DNA of 64,000 bases. Origin: Natrinema gari JCM 14663 (lineage in GTDB: Archaea > Halobacteriota > Halobacteria > Halobacteriales > Natrialbaceae). The stretch is from NCBI RefSeq assembly GCF_000337175.1, contig NZ_AOIJ01000049.1, positions 62,001-126,000 on the forward strand. The letters run 5' to 3'. Position numbers and translations under genes: made by a program. Below, piece after piece: positions 51,997 to 61,568 of this stretch. How positions within the stretch are numbered: position 1 is the stretch's first letter; the number at the start of each line of letters is the position of its first letter. The notes beneath the pieces are model-generated. The model was not told where the DNA came from, ran no database searches, and saw only the letters and a list, made by a program, of their open reading frames with translations.

Positions 51997-53259
51997 CTAC
52001 AGCTGTTTCCAGACGTCTTCATCGTCCTCGAACCCGTCCGGATCGTCGGGCGCGGCGAACTCGTCGCTCGGGTCGAGTTCCAGGATCTCCTCGGTGGAGA
52101 GGTCCCGGTCCCCGTCGATCACGTCCGGCTGCTTCTCGAGGTCCATCTCCGGCCAGGCGGTCTCCTCCCAGAGACCGCGGTCGCTGTAGTAGTAGACGAC
52201 CCCGTCGTTGACGACCGCGAACAGCCCCCGCTGGGTGTCGTGGACGACCCGCTCGTTGGTGTCGATCGCGACATCGACGACATCCTCGAGCGTGTCCAGC
52301 GAGACATGGTAATCCCCGATCCACATCGGGATCGAGCCCCGGGAGATCCACTCGGCGTAGCGCTGTTCGTGGACCGCGCGGCGAGCGCTCTCGACATCGG
52401 TCGGCGAGCGCCGGGCGACGATCGCCGCCCCGGCCAGCGAGAGCGTTCCGAGCACCGACAACCCGCCGATGAGCGCCGGGCTACGGGACTCCGTCGTGCG
52501 GACCGTCCCGCTCCGATGGCTGTTCGATGCGGAGTCGGAGAGGTCCCCCTTGAGCCAGTAGGCGCCTTCCGTGATCGTCACCGGCGTCGTGGTCGTGAGG
52601 GTGCCCTGATGACGCTCCGTCTCGTACTCGACGCGGAGCACCAGCTTGAGGTCGACCGAGCCGACGCCGCTGATCTCGCGCTCGAGTTGGCGCTGGCGCT
52701 GTCGGTAGGACTCGAGGTCGATCGTCGCCTGCGACGTCGCGACACCGTTGTCGACCGCGGGCGACTCGCGGAGCACCTGATGGGTTTCGTTCCAGAACGG
52801 CTTGTCGTCGCGCTTCGCTTCGAACCGAAGGAGTAGTTCGTGGGTGACTGCCCCGTCCGCGATCGGCGACCCGCTGGTTTCGTTTCGGAGCGTCGTCCTC
52901 GGTTCGACGGTGAGCTCCGGTGTGGCGTTCAGAAAGTACACCGAGCTATTGGTGAGTTCCTCACCTTCGGTCCAGAGCGTCCCGCTCTCGGTGACGACGG
53001 CGCTCGTGTCGGCGTCAACCGTGACCTGTTCCTCGCCGAACTGGGGTGCGGTCGTCGTCTCCGGGTTCGCGACGGCCCAGCCGGTCGCGCCGATCGCGAG
53101 GAGCCCCACCACGAGCAGCACGATCATGATCGTCCGACCCTCTTTGGCCAGCAGCAACTCGAGACGCGGGTTATCGATCATTCGTTGCCCCCCGGGATCG
53201 GACGCCACGTCCGAGCGCATTCGGTGGCCGAACCGTCCACTTTCGAACTGGTCGGTCAC
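51997..53259 (-). CDS. DUF5305-like membrane protein
   Basis: 420 residues. A membrane helix (IMIVLLVVGLLAIGATGWAV, about 44-63) precedes an extracytoplasmic beta domain (70-250, VTVDADTSAVVTESGTLWTE), a second helix (PALIGGLSVLGTLSLAGAAI) and a cytoplasmic domain with YAEWISRGSIPMW and FAVVNDGVVYYYSDRGLWEE. This matches haloarchaeal DUF5305 proteins, often found beside signal peptidase and DUF1102 genes. GTG 53259 is supported by a TATA-like CTTATAG at about 53298-53304; ATG 53181 is the alternative. It is the last gene of the envelope set on this strand. Confidence 0.75.
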   Translation of the reverse strand: MTDQFESGRFGHRMRSDVASDPGGQRMIDNPRLELLLAKEGRTIMIVLLVVGLLAIGATGWAVANPETTTAPQFGEEQVTVDADTSAVVTESGTLWTEGEELTNSSVYFLNATPELTVEPRTTLRNETSGSPIADGAVTHELLLRFEAKRDDKPFWNETHQVLRESPAVDNGVATSQATIDLESYRQRQRQLEREISGVGSVDLKLVLRVEYETERHQGTLTTTTPVTITEGAYWLKGDLSDSASNSHRSGTVRTTESRSPALIGGLSVLGTLSLAGAAIVARRSPTDVESARRAVHEQRYAEWISRGSIPMWIGDYHVSLDTLEDVVDVAIDTNERVVHDTQRGLFAVVNDGVVYYYSDRGLWEETAWPEMDLEKQPDVIDGDRDLSTEEILELDPSDEFAAPDDPDGFEDDEDVWKQL

Positions 53260-53320
53260 CGGGACAATTCATACGCTAATGATGGAAATGAACCACTATA
53301 AGGGTAGCGGCCTTGCGGTG

Positions 53321-54499
53321 CTAATCCCGGTTTCTGCGCCACTTGCGAAGCTTTCGGTGGAGCCGTGTCGACAACGGGATGTGATCGCCAGTGGATCGAA
53401 ACCGGATGTCGTTACTGCCGAAGAGTACGAGCACGACTCCGACGGCGAGCCCGACGACGACGGCGTTGACCGCCGCGATCGCGACGAGCGGGTGGAGATC
53501 GTGGAGCCAGAACAGGACGGACGGGGGCAACACGGCGAGATAGCGATACTCGCCGAGATGGCGCGTATACTCGCCCGTCTCCTCGGGGGCTGATAGTGAG
53601 ACCGTCGTCTCGCCGCTATCACGGATACCGACGGTCTGCCGTGCCGGGTCCGCACTGATACTGCGGCTTTCGGCCTCGTGAACGACAGCGATCGGCAGAT
53701 ACCCCGAGTTGTCGACGGTACGAGTGAGCGTCGCCGTCTCGCCGGGGGCGACGATCTGTGGATTGTCGTCCGGCGATTCCGAACTGATGAGTTCGTACTC
53801 GGTCGTTCCCGAGGGGACGACCATCGCCGCGGTCGCAAACGTGACGAATACGAGCAAGACGAGTCCAAGCGCGGTCCAGAAGGCGATCACGTTCTCGCGC
53901 GATCGCGAGCGCCTCGTTTCGCGCTGGGATGGACCGAGCCGCTCGAAAAGCGTTCCGAAGCCGAGCAACGCGACGCCGATCGCGACCATGAGCGCACCGA
54001 GGCCGTTCGCGGACATCGTCGCCAGTCCGAACACCGACGCGACGACGCCGGCGACCGATGCTGCGACCCCCTGAATCGCCAACACCGCGGTCCCGAGCTG
54101 TGGGATCGTGACCACGGACCCCCCTGGCTGCCAGACTTCGGCGACGATCTGGCCCTCCGTGACATGGGGTTCGCCGCCGTCCTGATCGGTAAACGGGTTC
54201 GCGTCGCCTTTCGTAACGTACCCCTCCTCGGTTTCGCCGACGACGCGGTGGGTCGTCAGCCCGCCGTCGTGGAGGGTTCGGGCCTGATAGACGACGACGT
54301 CACCCTCCTCGATGTCACCGGCAACGAGGCTTGGAATCGCCACGAATCCGTCGCCGGTGTCGATCGTCGGCTCCATGCTCCCGGTAGCGACGTACCCGAG
54401 CAGGATCGGCTGACCGAGCAGTTGGCCGACGATCAACAGGAGCACGGCCAGCACGAGGACGAGGCCGAGCCCTCGTTTTGCGAGTCCGACGGCGGTCAT
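53321..54499 (-). CDS. Signal peptidase I (archaeal S26B type) with C-terminal membrane extension
   Basis: 392 residues. The catalytic part is at the N-terminus: Ser41 in ATGSMEPTI, His84 in LTTHRVVG and Asp99 in KGDANPF, the Ser/His/Asp set of archaeal and SipW-like enzymes rather than Ser/Lys. A signal-anchor helix precedes it. About 250 further residues add membrane helices (about 140-175, 205-232, 335-360) around an exported beta domain (235-330, EYELISSESPDDNPQIV). Normal archaeal enzymes are roughly 150-250 residues. Placed between exported DUF1102-type genes and DUF5305, it is probably dedicated to their processing. Confidence 0.85.
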   Translation of the reverse strand: MTAVGLAKRGLGLVLVLAVLLLIVGQLLGQPILLGYVATGSMEPTIDTGDGFVAIPSLVAGDIEEGDVVVYQARTLHDGGLTTHRVVGETEEGYVTKGDANPFTDQDGGEPHVTEGQIVAEVWQPGGSVVTIPQLGTAVLAIQGVAASVAGVVASVFGLATMSANGLGALMVAIGVALLGFGTLFERLGPSQRETRRSRSRENVIAFWTALGLVLLVFVTFATAAMVVPSGTTEYELISSESPDDNPQIVAPGETATLTRTVDNSGYLPIAVVHEAESRSISADPARQTVGIRDSGETTVSLSAPEETGEYTRHLGEYRYLAVLPPSVLFWLHDLHPLVAIAAVNAVVVGLAVGVVLVLFGSNDIRFRSTGDHIPLSTRLHRKLRKWRRNRD

Positions 54500-54663
54500 G
54501 AATCAGTTGGTGACACGGTCATGGTCGGCTGACTGTTCGAGTACTGTTTCTTTCGGATCCAGCAGCATAAAGGTCGCGAGAGCACGAGCCGAGCCGCGAC
54601 GACTCGCGAGCGAGACGCGGCGATCGACCACCACCACGGCCGTGCGAGTTGGCCGACCGCGTG

Positions 54664-55821
54664 CTAGCGGAAGAACGCCCACCGGCGGTTCGCAGCGAGC
54701 ACCAGGACCAACAGCCCCGCCGTCGCCGGCGGAGCGAGCGCCGCCGTCGTCGCCGGTGAGAGTTCCCGATCCCGGATCGAAAACGCCGCCCGCTCGACGG
54801 ACACCGTGCCCGCGGACACGCCGTTGACGGCGGTCTCGTACGTGCCGGGCTCGTCGAACCGGCGCTCGAAGGTCACCGTCCGCTCGCCGTTCGCCGGAAT
54901 CGAAACGGCCCGGCTATCGACGACGATCCCGTCGACCGCCACCTCGAGCGTGCGCGTCACTCGCTCGTCGGTTGGGTTTTCGACCGTCGCTTCGATCGTC
55001 GTCGACTCGCCGACGGTGATGTCGGGATCGACGACGGTCGCGGTGACGATGTCGGCCGCCGGCCCGTTGACGGTCACCGACGCGCTCCCCACCCCTTTGA
55101 TGCCGACATCGTACGTCCCGGGCCACTCCATCGGCCGCTCGAACGTGACGGGCTGCGATTCGCCCGGCCCGAGGGTAATCATCCGCCGATCGACCACGGT
55201 CCCGTCGACCGTCAGGACTGCGGTCGCCGAGGTCGTCGTGTCGCCGGTGTTTCGATACGTCGCCGTCGCCGTCACCGTCTCGCCAGCCTCCACCGTCGTG
55301 GATGACAGCTCGAACGCCGAGCCGTCGATGGCCGTCGATTCGGCCGGCGACGATCCGCTCGAGCCCCCTGGCATGGGTTCGCCGTCCGCGTATTGGACCG
55401 TGATCGTAAACGTCTCCGTCCCGGACCGTGCGATGTGCGTATCGACCGCGACGCCGATACGCGCGACGGTCCCGGCCGACGGCTCGAGCGGGCTTGCCTC
55501 GCTGATCGTCGCCGTCGGCTGGTCGTTCCGATAGAACGTGAGTCCAGGGACGTCGTGGTCGATCCAGATCCGCTCGACCGCGTCGTCGGTGACGGTAATC
55601 CTGAATACGTCGTCCGCACGCGTGACCGAGCGGTCGTTAAGAGCCTCGAGATCGAGTCCGAGTTCACCGTTCTCGACGGCCGCGTACTGTCCGTTGGCAG
55701 CATCCTCGGACTCGAGGATGACGTCCTCAGTGACGTCGTCCGCACTCATCGTCAGTGCTGCCGTTGGCACGATGAGCGAGACCAACAACGCGGCCACGAG
55801 TAGATAACGGGATGCTTTCAT
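54664..55821 (-). CDS. Exported protein with CARDB-like beta domains
   Basis: 385 residues. Signal peptide (MKASRYLLVAALLVSLIVPTA), a DUF1102/TasA-like N-terminal region (about 25-170, ELGLDLEALNDRSVTRADD, IWIDHDVPGLTFYRN) and two Ig-like CARDB modules (about 180-260 and 265-345), ending in a hydrophobic helix (TTAALAPPATAGLLVLVLAA) and a basic tail that would anchor it in the membrane. It lies 66 bases downstream of the DUF1102 protein gene on the same strand, and the signal peptidase gene follows. Confidence 0.75.
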   Translation of the reverse strand: MKASRYLLVAALLVSLIVPTAALTMSADDVTEDVILESEDAANGQYAAVENGELGLDLEALNDRSVTRADDVFRITVTDDAVERIWIDHDVPGLTFYRNDQPTATISEASPLEPSAGTVARIGVAVDTHIARSGTETFTITVQYADGEPMPGGSSGSSPAESTAIDGSAFELSSTTVEAGETVTATATYRNTGDTTTSATAVLTVDGTVVDRRMITLGPGESQPVTFERPMEWPGTYDVGIKGVGSASVTVNGPAADIVTATVVDPDITVGESTTIEATVENPTDERVTRTLEVAVDGIVVDSRAVSIPANGERTVTFERRFDEPGTYETAVNGVSAGTVSVERAAFSIRDRELSPATTAALAPPATAGLLVLVLAANRRWAFFR

Positions 55822-55887
55822 GTAATAAAACTGGACTCGATCGGGCACCGATACGCGGCTCGCGACTGTCAGCCCATCACGATCACG

Positions 55888-56535
55888 TTATACGGAACTG
55901 GCCACGATGGTCACTTCCGAGAGGTACCCGCTGATAGTCGTGCTCGGATCGAAGCTCGATCCGGGATCCGCGACACCGATCACTAACGATACTTCCTCGT
56001 TCGGGTCCGACCCGCCCGTTGCATCCAGGGAGACCGAAGAGCCGTTCGTTCCGTCGCCGACGATCGAGTTATCGTTCTCGTCAGTGAACGCGTACTCGAT
56101 CGTGAGCGAGTTCCCGTTGCCGTCGTTGATCGTGTTTTCGATCACGGCGTTGTAGCTATCCAGAATCGTCGGCGACGTCTGGATGGTACCCTCGCTCGAA
56201 TAGATACTCAGGTTGACGTTGTTCGAGCCGTTGTTGATCGTCCGGAACAGCGGGCTGAACGTCGTCTTTGCGCCGAGGTTGATGCCGGAACTGTTCCCCA
56301 ACGAGTCGAACGCCAACTCGAGTGTCCCGTTCGTGATCGATGACGCGTCCGAATATTGGTTTCCGTTGCTGTCACTGGTATCGAACGCGAGCGCACTCGA
56401 TGCGTCACCGGCGACGGCGACGGAGACGGTTCGGTCCGCCTCGACACTACTAAACGCGCCTGTTCCGAGCGCAGCCCCGCCACCCGCAACGATCGTTCCC
56501 AGTCCGACTAACACATTACGTCGATTCATTTTCAT
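55888..56535 (-). CDS. DUF1102/TasA-like exported protein
   Basis: 215 residues. MKMNRRNVLVGLGTIVAGGG is a short signal/anchor, followed by the typical small-residue cleavage zone AALGTGAFSSVEADRTVSV and a Gly/Ser/Asn-rich beta domain (SSALAFDTSDSNGNQYSDAS, SSEGTIQTSPTILDS). This pattern is DUF1102, a family grouped by structure with the bacterial fibre protein TasA/CalY; related archaeal proteins form bundling pili. It heads the minus-strand set (CARDB protein, signal peptidase, DUF5305). Start 56535 or 56529. Confidence 0.75.
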   Translation of the reverse strand: MKMNRRNVLVGLGTIVAGGGAALGTGAFSSVEADRTVSVAVAGDASSALAFDTSDSNGNQYSDASSITNGTLELAFDSLGNSSGINLGAKTTFSPLFRTINNGSNNVNLSIYSSEGTIQTSPTILDSYNAVIENTINDGNGNSLTIEYAFTDENDNSIVGDGTNGSSVSLDATGGSDPNEEVSLVIGVADPGSSFDPSTTISGYLSEVTIVASSV

Positions 56536-56976
56536 GGTTGGTATCTCCGTGCTACGTCCAAGCACCGACCGCCGAGGGTGCTGGAACGCAGTTCCTACTT
56601 GCGACCACGACCCCTACCCACTTTGTATTGAGTAGCCGGAACCGGCGAAAGACCGGCCATACTGCCGTTCAAGGCGGTCTTGAACGCGTGCGCCTGGGTC
56701 TCGAGAGGAACAAGTGCGGCCTGAAACACCGCCGAGAGAAAGCAGGGCAACGAGGTGGCAGCCGAAATGTTGGGAATTTGATGTATTTCACCAACCGAAT
56801 CAAACGGGGGAGAGCCTCGAGTTAGCCCCTCAGCGCTCGGTGCACCGCGTTCGGCGGCCGGCATTCCCGAGTTGGGGTTCGATCAAGTGGTACTTGAGAC
56901 GGCTGTTCTCAATTATGATAATAGAACTATCTCGCGTATTTTTATATGTTTCTTTCGGGTAGTATGAATAGAGCTA
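56536..56976. promoter_or_regulatory. Divergent intergenic region between the two halves of the envelope set
   Basis: 440 bases without a supported gene. It contains a perfect inverted repeat CGTTCAAG-(5)-CTTGAACG at 56666-56686, an AT-rich plus-strand TATA box TTTTTATATG at 56939-56948 (predicted transcript start about seven bases before ATG 56977), and the leader of the minus-strand DUF1102 gene. The inverted repeat could bind a regulator shared by both directions. Confidence 0.5.
56666..56686. repeat. Perfect 8-base inverted repeat
   Basis: CGTTCAAG (56666-56673), loop GCGGT, CTTGAACG (56679-56686). It is about 130 bases before the DUF1102 start and 290 bases before the pilin-like start; possible operator or RNA hairpin. 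Confidence 0.5.
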
Positions 56977-59685
56977 ATGGTGGGTACACGACGTCCGTCC
57001 CGGAGTCGAGAACACGACGCTGGGGAGCGAGGGGCAAGTTCGATAATCGGGATCCTGTTGCTATTTACACTCGTTATACTGGGTGCAGCAGTGGTGTTCG
57101 TCGCCGGGTCAGTGATGTTCGACTCGGTTCAGACACAAGTGAACAACGAACAGACACAGAAGTTCGTCGAAGAGACGGACCAGGGCATCATGACGGCCGC
57201 GACGACGGGCAAAAACCAGCCGCTGCCGATCGACGAGATGCAGGCGGAAAAACCGATGATCACGGACGATGGGTCGATCAGCGTCACGTGGTACAACGAA
57301 ACGGGGCCGAGTTGCTCGACCGGCGAGAAGAGTCTCCGCACGCTCGAGTTCGAACTCGACGACCGGACGATCGCCCATCAGGGCGGCGGCGTCTGGAAGA
57401 AGGCCAACGGGCAGACCACCGTCGTTTCGGAACCCCAGATCGGGTACGACGGTGAGACGTTACGGCTCCAGATCCTCCAACTCGAGGAGGGCGATTTCGG
57501 GGCCTCCGAAGCGGTGGCGAAAGCCGACCACAGCAAAGCGACGGACCTTACCGAGGAGATCAATACCGTCGCCCAGAACTGTCCGAACGGGACGAGCGTG
57601 AAATTCACGATCGAAAGTTCCTATCACGAGGGCTGGTACCAGTACCTCGACTCGGAGTTCGGGACGGAAGCGAACGTGACCCAACACGGGAATGCAGTGA
57701 CAGTGAAACTCGCCGACATCAGAGAGCCGTTCGACCCTGCGAAGTTCATCGTCAAAGAAGACCACGGGCTGCGTGGTCCCGGTGGCAAGGCGCTGGCGAA
57801 GGACCAGCGACTCGCACGCTCTCTGGCCGGAAAGGGGAACGGCGGCGGAAAAGGCGGCAATGACGTCTTCAGTATTAAAACGACGATCAAGAACGTCGGA
57901 CAGCGAGACGAAAGCCAAGACATCACTGCAACGATCTTGGATGACGACAGCAACAAGACGCTGCTGACGACTACGCATTCCAATCTCTCAGTTCCGAAAA
58001 ACGGCGGTGAACGGACCATCGACCATCCGGGACTCAAGTTCGAACTCGATGCGGCCGCGAAAAAGAAACTCGACCACGGTGAGACGTACAAGTACATCAT
58101 CGAAACCGAAGACGACCGGACTGATACGCCCGGTACGTTCTACGTCGGCATGTCGGGCTCGTACTTTAACGTCTCGAACGCCAGCCACGACATCGACGAG
58201 AACGTGACGATTACCGCGGACGTACAGAACATCGGCGTCGAGAACACGAGCGATGGTCGCGCGGATCTCGAGCTCGAGTATCTCGACGACGAGACCCCGG
58301 ACGCGTATAAACGGATCAGTCCGAACACCGTCAACGGCTCGTACGGTGCGACGACGACCGTCGAATGGACCATAAACACGAGTCGGATGATCCGAGGGGA
58401 CTACGAGTACACCGTCACCACCGCCGACGACAAGTCGGTGACGAAGACGTTTACCCTCAATACGGGCGTCGATCCGAGCGATACGGAACTCGTTTTGGAC
58501 GCCGGGAACGAGGTCAACGTCTCGGTTCTGGGGACCGAAGTATCGGCCGAAGGGCCAACTGATGAGCGACGGACACGGCTCGTTGACGGCGATAAAGCAA
58601 ACGGAAAGTGGAAAAAGAGCGGTAGCGGTGAATGGAACTTCTACAATGAGGGTTGGAATCGGAGTGGTGGATGGAGAACCAATAGCTGCAGATATTGCGA
58701 TGAGCCGACGGAAATCTGGTGGGACGACGATGGTGGCTGGGAACTCGAGTGGACCAAACGCGGAGACGGCGACTGGTCTTGGAACGGACCAGGAACGTGG
58801 CAACAGCACCCCGTCTACTACAAGCAATGGGCACCGGTGACGACGGAGATCATCACGCAACCGGTCGACGAAAACGGAAAGCCGATCGGCAAGTCGAACA
58901 CGATCCAGCCGGAGAGTTGGGGCAGCGAAACCTACGAGTCGTACCGATCGCCGGAAGACCAGAACCTCAACACCCACGATACGCGAGACAAAATCTGGAA
59001 GTACAACTTCACGACGGAGGATCGAATCAGTCTCACGTTGAGTTCGACGTTGTACAGCTGTAGCAATTACCAGAAGAAGAACACCGATCTGTATACTGAC
59101 GGTGAGTATTACCCGTATCACGACACGTGGTCGAGATACAACGGGAACGGCTACTGGGACCACTACGACTGTGGGAACATCTACGGGAAGTCACTCGAGG
59201 TGGACGCGACGACCGACTCGAACAAGGCGAACGTCCGTGTCAGGAGCAGTGGAAACAACACGGTGCCGGAGCTACGGGCGGGACATCAGCGCCAGCAGAG
59301 CGCTGACGAAGTGCTCGAGCGCGGCGACAAGGACCTCTTCGGTGGCAAATACGAGAACGGAACGGGATATCTCGACCTCGAAAAAGGAAAGGAGTTCGTC
59401 TTCATGTACGAACTGACCGAGGAAGCGCCAGCTAACACGGACCCCGAGGAGTTCTGGAAGGAAGCCAAAGAGACCGACACACCGGGGGACCCGAACTTCA
59501 ACGACGTGATCGTCCTCGTCGAAGTCGACGACGTGCCGACTGAAGACATCGTCTCCCCGATACCCGTCGGGGAAGACGGGGTACCCGTCGATGTCGGTCG
59601 CGGGGAGTCTGACAACGACTCCAGCGATCAATCCGACCCCGACTCCGGCGTCGAGGTCGATACGGACAAGATCATAATCGGCTAA
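56977..59685 (+). CDS. Large pilin-like surface protein (DUF7289-like) with Trp-rich insert
   Basis: 902 residues. The N-terminus has a class III-type signal (RGASSIIGILLLFTLVILGA) as in archaeal pilins, then a DUF7289-like region (about 60-230), a Lys/Gly linker (LAGKGNGGGKGGND), CARDB-like modules (300-520), a Trp/Tyr-rich segment (529-620, 12 Trp in about 80 residues, with CRYC), Cys-containing blocks near 695 and 732, and an acidic end. Family name is from memory. It is far longer than ordinary pilins, so it is more probably a pilus-associated adhesin or surface filament than a major subunit. Strong TATA just upstream. Confidence 0.75.
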   Translation: MVGTRRPSRSREHDAGERGASSIIGILLLFTLVILGAAVVFVAGSVMFDSVQTQVNNEQTQKFVEETDQGIMTAATTGKNQPLPIDEMQAEKPMITDDGSISVTWYNETGPSCSTGEKSLRTLEFELDDRTIAHQGGGVWKKANGQTTVVSEPQIGYDGETLRLQILQLEEGDFGASEAVAKADHSKATDLTEEINTVAQNCPNGTSVKFTIESSYHEGWYQYLDSEFGTEANVTQHGNAVTVKLADIREPFDPAKFIVKEDHGLRGPGGKALAKDQRLARSLAGKGNGGGKGGNDVFSIKTTIKNVGQRDESQDITATILDDDSNKTLLTTTHSNLSVPKNGGERTIDHPGLKFELDAAAKKKLDHGETYKYIIETEDDRTDTPGTFYVGMSGSYFNVSNASHDIDENVTITADVQNIGVENTSDGRADLELEYLDDETPDAYKRISPNTVNGSYGATTTVEWTINTSRMIRGDYEYTVTTADDKSVTKTFTLNTGVDPSDTELVLDAGNEVNVSVLGTEVSAEGPTDERRTRLVDGDKANGKWKKSGSGEWNFYNEGWNRSGGWRTNSCRYCDEPTEIWWDDDGGWELEWTKRGDGDWSWNGPGTWQQHPVYYKQWAPVTTEIITQPVDENGKPIGKSNTIQPESWGSETYESYRSPEDQNLNTHDTRDKIWKYNFTTEDRISLTLSSTLYSCSNYQKKNTDLYTDGEYYPYHDTWSRYNGNGYWDHYDCGNIYGKSLEVDATTDSNKANVRVRSSGNNTVPELRAGHQRQQSADEVLERGDKDLFGGKYENGTGYLDLEKGKEFVFMYELTEEAPANTDPEEFWKEAKETDTPGDPNFNDVIVLVEVDDVPTEDIVSPIPVGEDGVPVDVGRGESDNDSSDQSDPDSGVEVDTDKIIIG

Positions 59686-59945
59686 CGACCGCCGGCGCTG
59701 GGGCGGCCGGGACGGACACCGATATTAATCTTCGTTGCCGTTATTGTTTCCAACGGTATATCTCAACGGTTCGATATCGGAATTCAGGTAGACGTTCGTT
59801 CCAACGGGAGAGGGTTGCTATCCCTACTCTCGGATGGGGACATCCCGATAGGAAATGTATCATCACAAGACACTAGTGACATTCAGAACAGGTGTAGCAA
59901 CAAGCGTTATGTATCAACAGCACCGATATTCGTATTGAGAAGGGG

Positions 59946-60518
59946 ATGGCAACAACCAGCGAGAGCGACCCGAGCGCGACGGATGCAACAGGTCAGGACG
60001 ACCAGCTACCGGCCGGTGAAATCTTCGACCTGCTGAGCAACCAGCGTCGCCGGTACGTCATCCACTACTGCAAGGGCGAGGACGAACCCGTTCCGATCGG
60101 TGACCTCGCCGAACACGTTGCGGCCTGGGAACTCGAGAAGGACGTCGCGGAGGTCACGTCCGCCGAACGAAAGCGGGTCTATACGTCGTTACAACAGTCG
60201 CACTTGCCCACCCTCGAGCGCGCCGACGTGATCGCATTCGACGATCGGACGATCGAACTCACGGACGAGGCGGCCGAGTTGGACGTTTACCTCGACATCG
60301 TGCCGGGCGACTCGGTCCCCTGGGGAACCTACTATCTGGGGCTGGCTGCGGTCGGGTCGGTCGTGATGGTAGGGTTGTGGCTCGAGGTAGTCCCGACCGA
60401 GACGATTCCGGAACTCGGCTGGGCCACGCTGGTGGTCGGGCTTTTCGCCGCCTCCGCAGTCGTCCACGTGGTCCAAAACCGACGGATGCGGCTCGGCGAG
60501 ATGGAGCGGCCACCGTAA
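59946..60518 (+). CDS. Membrane wHTH regulator (DUF7344-like)
   Basis: 190 residues. An N-terminal winged helix (EIFDLLSNQRRRYVIHYCKG, then DLAEHVAAWELEKDVAEVTS) belongs to the haloarchaeal DUF7344 type; two C-terminal membrane helices (GTYYLGLAAVGSVVMVGLW, WATLVVGLFAASAVVHVV) tie it to the membrane. The bactofilin-like gene starts three bases after its stop, so it probably controls or accompanies that gene. A TATA-like CGTTATGTATC near 59904-59913 lies about 35 bases before the ATG. Confidence 0.78.
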   Translation: MATTSESDPSATDATGQDDQLPAGEIFDLLSNQRRRYVIHYCKGEDEPVPIGDLAEHVAAWELEKDVAEVTSAERKRVYTSLQQSHLPTLERADVIAFDDRTIELTDEAAELDVYLDIVPGDSVPWGTYYLGLAAVGSVVMVGLWLEVVPTETIPELGWATLVVGLFAASAVVHVVQNRRMRLGEMERPP

Positions 60519-60521
60519 GTC

Positions 60522-61568
60522 ATGAACGCGTTCACCAAACTCGCGGTCGTCTTCCTCTTCGTTGGAGCGGTGCTACTGGCCGGTCCGGTGTTCGGATTTA
60601 GCTCACTCGCGGCGAATCGAGGAGCCGACGTGTCAGTCGGCGGGAGCGATGCGTTGATCGGTGTCGATGCGACGCACCTCACGCTCGACGGGCCACGTGA
60701 CGAAGCGACGGTCTCGATCGAGAACAACGCGGGACGGCGACTCTCCCTCGAGGCCGAGGATACGACGGGCCCGGACGTGCAGGTCGACGGGCAGTTGTCG
60801 GGCACGCTCGCGGCAGGGGAGAGTCTCCAGGTGACGGTTTCGTGCAACGGCGGGGGGACGAGCGGCACCGATTCGGGAATCGTCACCGTAACCGAAGCGA
60901 TCAGCGACGACGGTTCGATCACCGTTCGGGATGCGACCCTTCCGGTCACGGTCGACTACGAGTGCACCGGCGGCAAACCCGGAACGCCGCCAGGACAGCC
61001 GAGTGACGACGACGTCGTCATCGAACCTGGCGGCAAATCCAACGACGAGATCGACAGCGACGGGACCGTCTGGATCGGCGACGGCGGCAAGGCAAACGAC
61101 GAGGTCAAGGCAGGCGGCGATGTCTCGATCGGAACCGGTGGGAAGACGAACGACGAAGTCGAGGCGGGTGGCAACATCGTTACCGCCGACGACTACACCG
61201 CAAACGGTGAACTCTCCGCTGGAGGCGATGTCTCGATCGGCGACGGCGGCAAGACCAACAACGAGGTCACTGCTGGTGGCAGCATCACCACCGGGGACGA
61301 CTACACCGCAAACGGCGAACTCACCGCGACCGAGGATATCACCGTCGGGTCGGGTTCGAAGATTCAAAACGGCATCAGTGCCGGCGGGGACATCTCCATC
61401 GGTAGCGGGTCCAAAGTCAACGGCGAACTGGATGCGGGCGGCGACGTATACGTCGGCGACTCCGTGACGTTCAACAACGAAGTCACGGCCGGAGGGACGA
61501 TCTACGTCGGGTGCGACGTCAGGTTCAACGGCGATCTCTCCGCTGGCTCCGTCGTCGACGAGTGCTGA
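60522..61568 (+). CDS. Exported protein with bactofilin-like beta repeats
   Basis: 348 residues. A signal/anchor (AVVFLFVGAVLLAGPVFGF) is followed by a DUF1102-like beta domain (about 30-150, ANRGADVSVGGSDALIGVDA). The last 180 residues are imperfect repeats of about 15-22 residues built on AGGDVSIGxGGKxNxEV and DDYTANGELxAxxD, ending VDEC. Such Gly/Asp/Asn-rich ladders form a beta helix, as in bactofilin/polymer-forming proteins, here on the outside of the cell. It lies three bases behind the membrane regulator and close to the fibre-type genes. Confidence 0.75.
   Translation: MNAFTKLAVVFLFVGAVLLAGPVFGFSSLAANRGADVSVGGSDALIGVDATHLTLDGPRDEATVSIENNAGRRLSLEAEDTTGPDVQVDGQLSGTLAAGESLQVTVSCNGGGTSGTDSGIVTVTEAISDDGSITVRDATLPVTVDYECTGGKPGTPPGQPSDDDVVIEPGGKSNDEIDSDGTVWIGDGGKANDEVKAGGDVSIGTGGKTNDEVEAGGNIVTADDYTANGELSAGGDVSIGDGGKTNNEVTAGGSITTGDDYTANGELTATEDITVGSGSKIQNGISAGGDISIGSGSKVNGELDAGGDVYVGDSVTFNNEVTAGGTIYVGCDVRFNGDLSAGSVVDEC

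Follow-up and report, generated by a model that had tools for sequence, protein, structure and literature searches.

What does a haloarchaeal cell build with the products of seven genes that lie side by side and all seem destined for the membrane or the cell surface? The genes occupy positions 51997-61568 of the window (the whole stretch of Natrinema gari DNA analysed here, 64,000 nucleotides), and a sequence-only reading had proposed that they encode seven exported or membrane proteins serving a surface fibre. All seven open reading frames were found, each with a signal peptide or membrane segment, so that this part of the proposal stands. Transcription of the minus-strand genes runs from the pilin through the CARDB protein and the signal peptidase to the DUF5305 protein, and the other three genes are on the plus strand:

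55888-56535, minus strand: Tafi pilus pilin, 215 aa (215/215 residues identical to PDB 9p0a chain C; 9p0a is the top Foldseek match)
54664-55821, minus strand: CARDB protein with Sec-type signal, pilin-like N-domain, two CARDB domains (4e-10) and C-terminal membrane anchor (membrane segment 359-377)
53321-54499, minus strand: dedicated ER/SipW-type signal peptidase, 392 aa, with C-terminal membrane/beta extension (TIGR02228 60.6 bits; SipW model 37.7 bits)
51997-53259, minus strand: DUF5305 membrane protein (PF17231, 6.3e-52)
56977-59685, plus strand: 902-aa DUF7289 type-IV-pilin-like protein, a divergent neighbour of uncertain membership (DUF7289 1.9e-14; Pilin_N 0.01)
59946-60518, plus strand: putative membrane wHTH regulator (DUF7344) with two membrane segments (PF24035, 1.7e-29)
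60522-61568, plus strand: predicted exported beta-solenoid protein whose signal and N-terminal strand are of pilin type (hhalign to the pilin; FapA and Bactofilin below threshold)

Identity and fold of the pilin

A phmmer search of the PDB sequences with the pilin returned a single match, chain C ("Pilin") of 9p0a, at 100% over the full length. Foldseek gives the title of this entry as "Structure of Natrinema sp. J7-2 Tafi pilus" (release 2025-07-23), and the chain has 188 modelled residues, 100% identical to the window pilin. The idea of a surface fibre was therefore right, and had already been established by others: the structure of the fibre subunit is solved, and the locus in itself is known and not a discovery. 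Among the papers searched for 9P0A, Tafi, TafA/C/E and SipW in haloarchaea, none describing the 9p0a pilus was found. It appears that no anchor, end piece or control site had been assigned at the Tafi locus before, and what is new here is the assignment of a likely base, cap and operator, all of which we infer.

The best NCBIfam models for the pilin were TafE (77.3 bits, cut-off 155) and TafA (52.8 bits, cut-off 190). Because both scores fall below the cut-offs, the window pilin seems to form a distinct branch of the Taf fimbriae. The label DUF1102, given to it earlier, had to be dropped following the profile search, since the pilin has no match to the Pfam family; only a paralogous pilin on another contig of the same genome (C46) matched it (29.2 versus 22.2 bits). 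The same label had been coupled with a likeness to TasA, and here the outcome was mixed. The AlphaFold2 model of the pilin is of low confidence (pLDDT 58) and the fold searches rest on it. After 9p0a its neighbours were strand-complemented pilins, namely the Sulfolobus thread, PapE, Fim proteins and the Pyrobaculum bundling pilus, with match probabilities of 0.98 for the bundling pilus (7ueg) and 0.90 for the thread (7pnb), far ahead of TasA itself (8aur, 0.06, E 1.1). A kinship with donor-strand pilins in general is thus supported, TasA itself is a weak match on this model, and "TasA-like" is a fair description of this predicted fold in the broad sense only. A profile search of the PDB with the pilin found neither another solved pilin nor TasA.

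A conserved unit with a dedicated signal peptidase

The peptidase scores above the cut-off of the archaeal signal peptidase model TIGR02228 (51.85 bits). Its catalytic motifs are S41 in GSMEP, H84 in TTHR and an aspartate in GDANPFTDQD (D99, D105 or D107), and they are kept in 26/26 haloarchaeal homologues checked, confirming the earlier reading of a Ser/His/Asp enzyme. The peptidases of the closely related N. altunense and N. pallidum are 96% identical to that of the window. For the DUF5305 frame the true start may be internal, at the methionine of MIDNPRLE.

A peptidase identity of at least 66% was taken to define orthologous loci; of the 14 found, one was cut by a contig end and 13 were intact. 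Pilin, CARDB protein, peptidase and DUF5305 were present together in all 13 intact loci; the other genes were variable, with the wHTH gene in 12, the solenoid protein in 10 (some matches behind this count being weak) and the 902-aa protein in nine. Across 116 Halobacteriales genomes, and among the matches listed, 93 of 100 DUF5305 genes lay no more than 12 kb from a signal peptidase gene, where chance would give about 1%. Among the same matches, DUF5305 and the pilin profile occurred together in 70 genomes, were both missing from 40, and stood one without the other in six (Fisher p = 5e-24, a value that overstates independence, the genomes being related), and about one third of the pilin genes were away from any peptidase. 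A lack of conserved co-occurrence, which would have counted against the proposal, is not what is seen: pilin, long Ser/His peptidase and DUF5305 make up a unit conserved across the Halobacteriales, and this supports the idea of a dedicated peptidase. DUF5305, a family of unknown function, thereby gains a clear genomic context.

The paralogous loci (L022-L033; contig C46 of the window's own genome) contain pilins and a peptidase, often the wHTH gene and DUF5305, mostly no CARDB protein and never the 902-aa protein. The C46 locus (L044, 40.9-46.5 kb) encodes two pilins, one of them the DUF1102 member, together with a 382-aa peptidase, DUF5305, a wHTH gene and a TafC-related protein. On the same contig, at L044:10216-10300, an aconitase-like gene is broken by open reading frames containing SYTHL and MCIRDR, which we take to be translated remnants of sequencing adapters, so that the interruption looks like an assembly artefact. 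Two lone pilin-like genes of this genome (C30:110360, L005; C57:36614, L002) carry the same signal motif and have no nearby peptidase among the matches listed; a small divergent exported protein adjoins the one on C30. The orthologous locus of N. salsiterrestre (L010:6165-8579) has three pilin-like genes, one of them a true TafA (212 versus 190 bits), hinting at mixed fibres.

Two things are established: a solved pilus structure has the pilin of the window as its subunit, and the pilin gene regularly occurs with those for a dedicated signal peptidase and DUF5305. From this we consider it probable that the core of pilin, CARDB protein, peptidase and DUF5305 is a Tafi pilus biogenesis locus of the donor-strand kind.

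Candidate base, end piece and operator

Profile-profile comparison with hhalign aligned the N-domain of the CARDB protein to the pilin with a probability of 95-96% (E 2e-8 to 1.5e-9). The match begins past the N-terminal strand of the pilin, for which the CARDB protein seems to have no counterpart. The link rests on this comparison, since a PDB profile search with the N-domain did not recover 9p0a. With a pilin-like domain that could only accept a strand, and with its membrane anchor, the CARDB protein would suit the base of the fibre and may be that base.

The solenoid protein offers the opposite arrangement. Residues 1-51 matched the pilin with a probability of 96-97% (E 2.5e-9 to 1.8e-10); part of this match is signal peptide, and the mature part by itself gave 95.9% over 26 columns. 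As a strand is present and no pilin body is recognised, the protein would be donor-only and suited to the free end, and it may be a terminal subunit that caps an end. Its previous description as a bactofilin-like scaffold did not hold: the signal peptide and pilin-type N-terminus mark it as exported, which led us to reject an internal bactofilin scaffold, and its Pfam scores are just under the cut-offs for FapA (30.0 versus 31 bits) and for Bactofilin (23.5 versus 27.9 bits).

Perhaps the CARDB and solenoid proteins are not fibre ends at all: they could be surface or sensor proteins of independent function, with nothing in common with the pilin beyond an export signal or a generic beta-sandwich. 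CARDB domains are common, a fold search with the whole CARDB protein gave generic Ig-like matches only, and the likeness of the solenoid protein to the pilin goes no further than residue 51. However, within the CARDB protein it is the N-domain alone that matches the pilin profile, the CARDB repeats, DUF5305 and the peptidase extension all scoring below 1% (at most 0.5%), and the CARDB gene is never missing from an intact locus. We regard such independence as a serious possibility, though on balance not the expected one. The same low scores led us to reject DUF5305 and the peptidase extension as hidden pilin domains.

Alignment of 15 upstream regions of the pilin operon pointed to two elements:

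56667-56685, minus strand: palindrome GTTCAAG-N5-CTTGAAC ahead of the pilin operon, a candidate operator (no variation in the TCA and CTTGAA columns of the 15 aligned regions)
56615-56632, minus strand: promoter-proximal element CTCAATACAAAGTGGGTA = CTCAATACAAAGTGGG (56632 down to 56615), 80-97 bases before the pilin start (AATAC.AAG..GG columns invariant in the 15 aligned regions)

The palindrome has a single exact match in its own genome, and the exact promoter-proximal element is likewise unique in window and genome. One arm of the palindrome is degraded in a few of the aligned regions, for example that of L010, and a scripted scan of the paralogous C46 locus for the same upstream elements did not show the palindrome. 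The neighbouring wHTH gene is a natural candidate for the regulator of the pilin operon. It is one of 14 matches in its genome and such a gene stands beside 12/13 orthologous and 8/12 paralogous loci; the solenoid gene starts 3 bases after its stop, making a likely operon of the two.

Signal processing, assembly and known systems

How the pilin is exported and processed can be approached from its N-terminal region:

56455-56535, minus strand: 27-aa signal peptide of the pilin, MKMNRRNVLVGLGTIVAGGGAALGTGA, with a twin-arginine (Tat-like) motif and a predicted cut before F28 (9p0a chain length, conservation, low hydropathy)

Subtracting these 27 residues from 215 leaves the 188 residues modelled in 9p0a, and this agreement in length fits a cut following GTGA, with F28 as the first mature residue. 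Among 14 pilins of the orthologous loci, identity is 96% over residues 3-35 and 30% over residues 36-215. Gene conversion was rejected as the cause: at third codon positions the signal part is only 57% identical, similar to the 59% of the peptidase gene, and this indicates selection on the protein and not conservation through shared DNA. The conserved region extends past the predicted cut site to R35 and so takes in the stretch that the peptidase would read as well as the first part of the likely donor strand. The sequence that the peptidase would target is nearly unchanging while the surface of the fibre diverges.

The twin arginines are found in 26/27 pilins and the signal is weakly hydrophobic, as Tat signals are, which suggests export of the pilin by Tat, on the evidence of sequence. 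The signals of the CARDB and solenoid proteins are of Sec type in appearance. If the pilin is folded before export, then its groove would have to be filled by something until assembly.

We propose that export of the pilin precursor probably takes the Tat route, and that the adjacent ER/SipW-type peptidase would cut after A27 and free the N-terminal strand from F28 onward, which would fill the groove of a neighbouring subunit. The membrane-anchored CARDB protein would take up the strand of a pilin and hold the fibre to the cell, and the exported solenoid protein would donate its strand to the outer fibre end and cap it. DUF5305 might act as an assembly factor, and the membrane wHTH protein would regulate the pilin operon, possibly via the palindrome. 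A bolder version has the pilin fold in the cytoplasm with its groove self-complemented, the cut by its own peptidase then releasing the strand and triggering assembly between the CARDB acceptor and the solenoid protein as donor cap, and neither an usher nor a separate chaperone taking part; in this full form we think the scheme rather unlikely. The wider proposal adds a testable parts list for the usher-free building of such pili by archaea, with candidates for the base, the end cap and the operator, and with a dedicated peptidase.

The locus might instead be a strict homologue of the Bacillus subtilis TasA-SipW-TapA system, making biofilm-matrix fibres of the Bacillus type by the same assembly with a TapA-like accessory protein. 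The likeness is that in both a fibre protein gene stands alongside an ER/SipW-type peptidase that processes, or here would process, the fibre protein, and the relation of the window peptidase to SipW and the cleavage context G-T-G-A-F are in keeping with it. However, TasA lies well behind bundling pili, threads and Fim/Pap pilins in the fold search and is not matched by sequence profile in the PDB, the pilin signal is Tat-like, the CARDB and DUF5305 genes are extra, and no TapA was noticed at the locus. Strict homology therefore seems improbable to us.

A type IV pilus system built around the 902-aa protein, with the pilin and peptidase genes as mere neighbours, is a very improbable reading of the locus. 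That protein has an archaeal type-IV-pilin-like N-terminus and its gene adjoins the pilin in 9/13 intact orthologous loci, but DUF7289 is missing from the other four and from all paralogous loci, the seven genes include no pilus ATPase or platform gene, and the pilin next to it is known as a pilus subunit from a solved structure. The earlier inclusion of the 902-aa protein among the components of the system was accordingly not upheld, and we treat it as a variable neighbour. Its centre is rich in Trp, Tyr and Gly, and its length and sequence differ greatly between species.

The donor-strand pilus reading places the locus closest to the Tafi pilus of Natrinema sp. J7-2, from the same genus, with a pilin identical over all its residues; the 9p0a entry holds the pilin only, as far as seen. 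Relation to the Taf fimbriae of NCBIfam (TafA, TafC, TafE) is through TafE and TafA, below both cut-offs. The bundling pili of Pyrobaculum calidifontis (7ueg) and the thread of Sulfolobus acidocaldarius (7pnb) are likewise made of archaeal donor-strand pilins, at about 14-16% identity and not from haloarchaea. Chaperone-usher pili (Fim/Pap) resemble the window locus in having strand-complemented pilins, which are among its best fold matches, and differ in that no usher or PapD-type chaperone was seen among the genes of the locus. The logic of their end subunits, acceptor-only at one end and donor-only at the other, is analogous to that proposed here for the CARDB and solenoid proteins.
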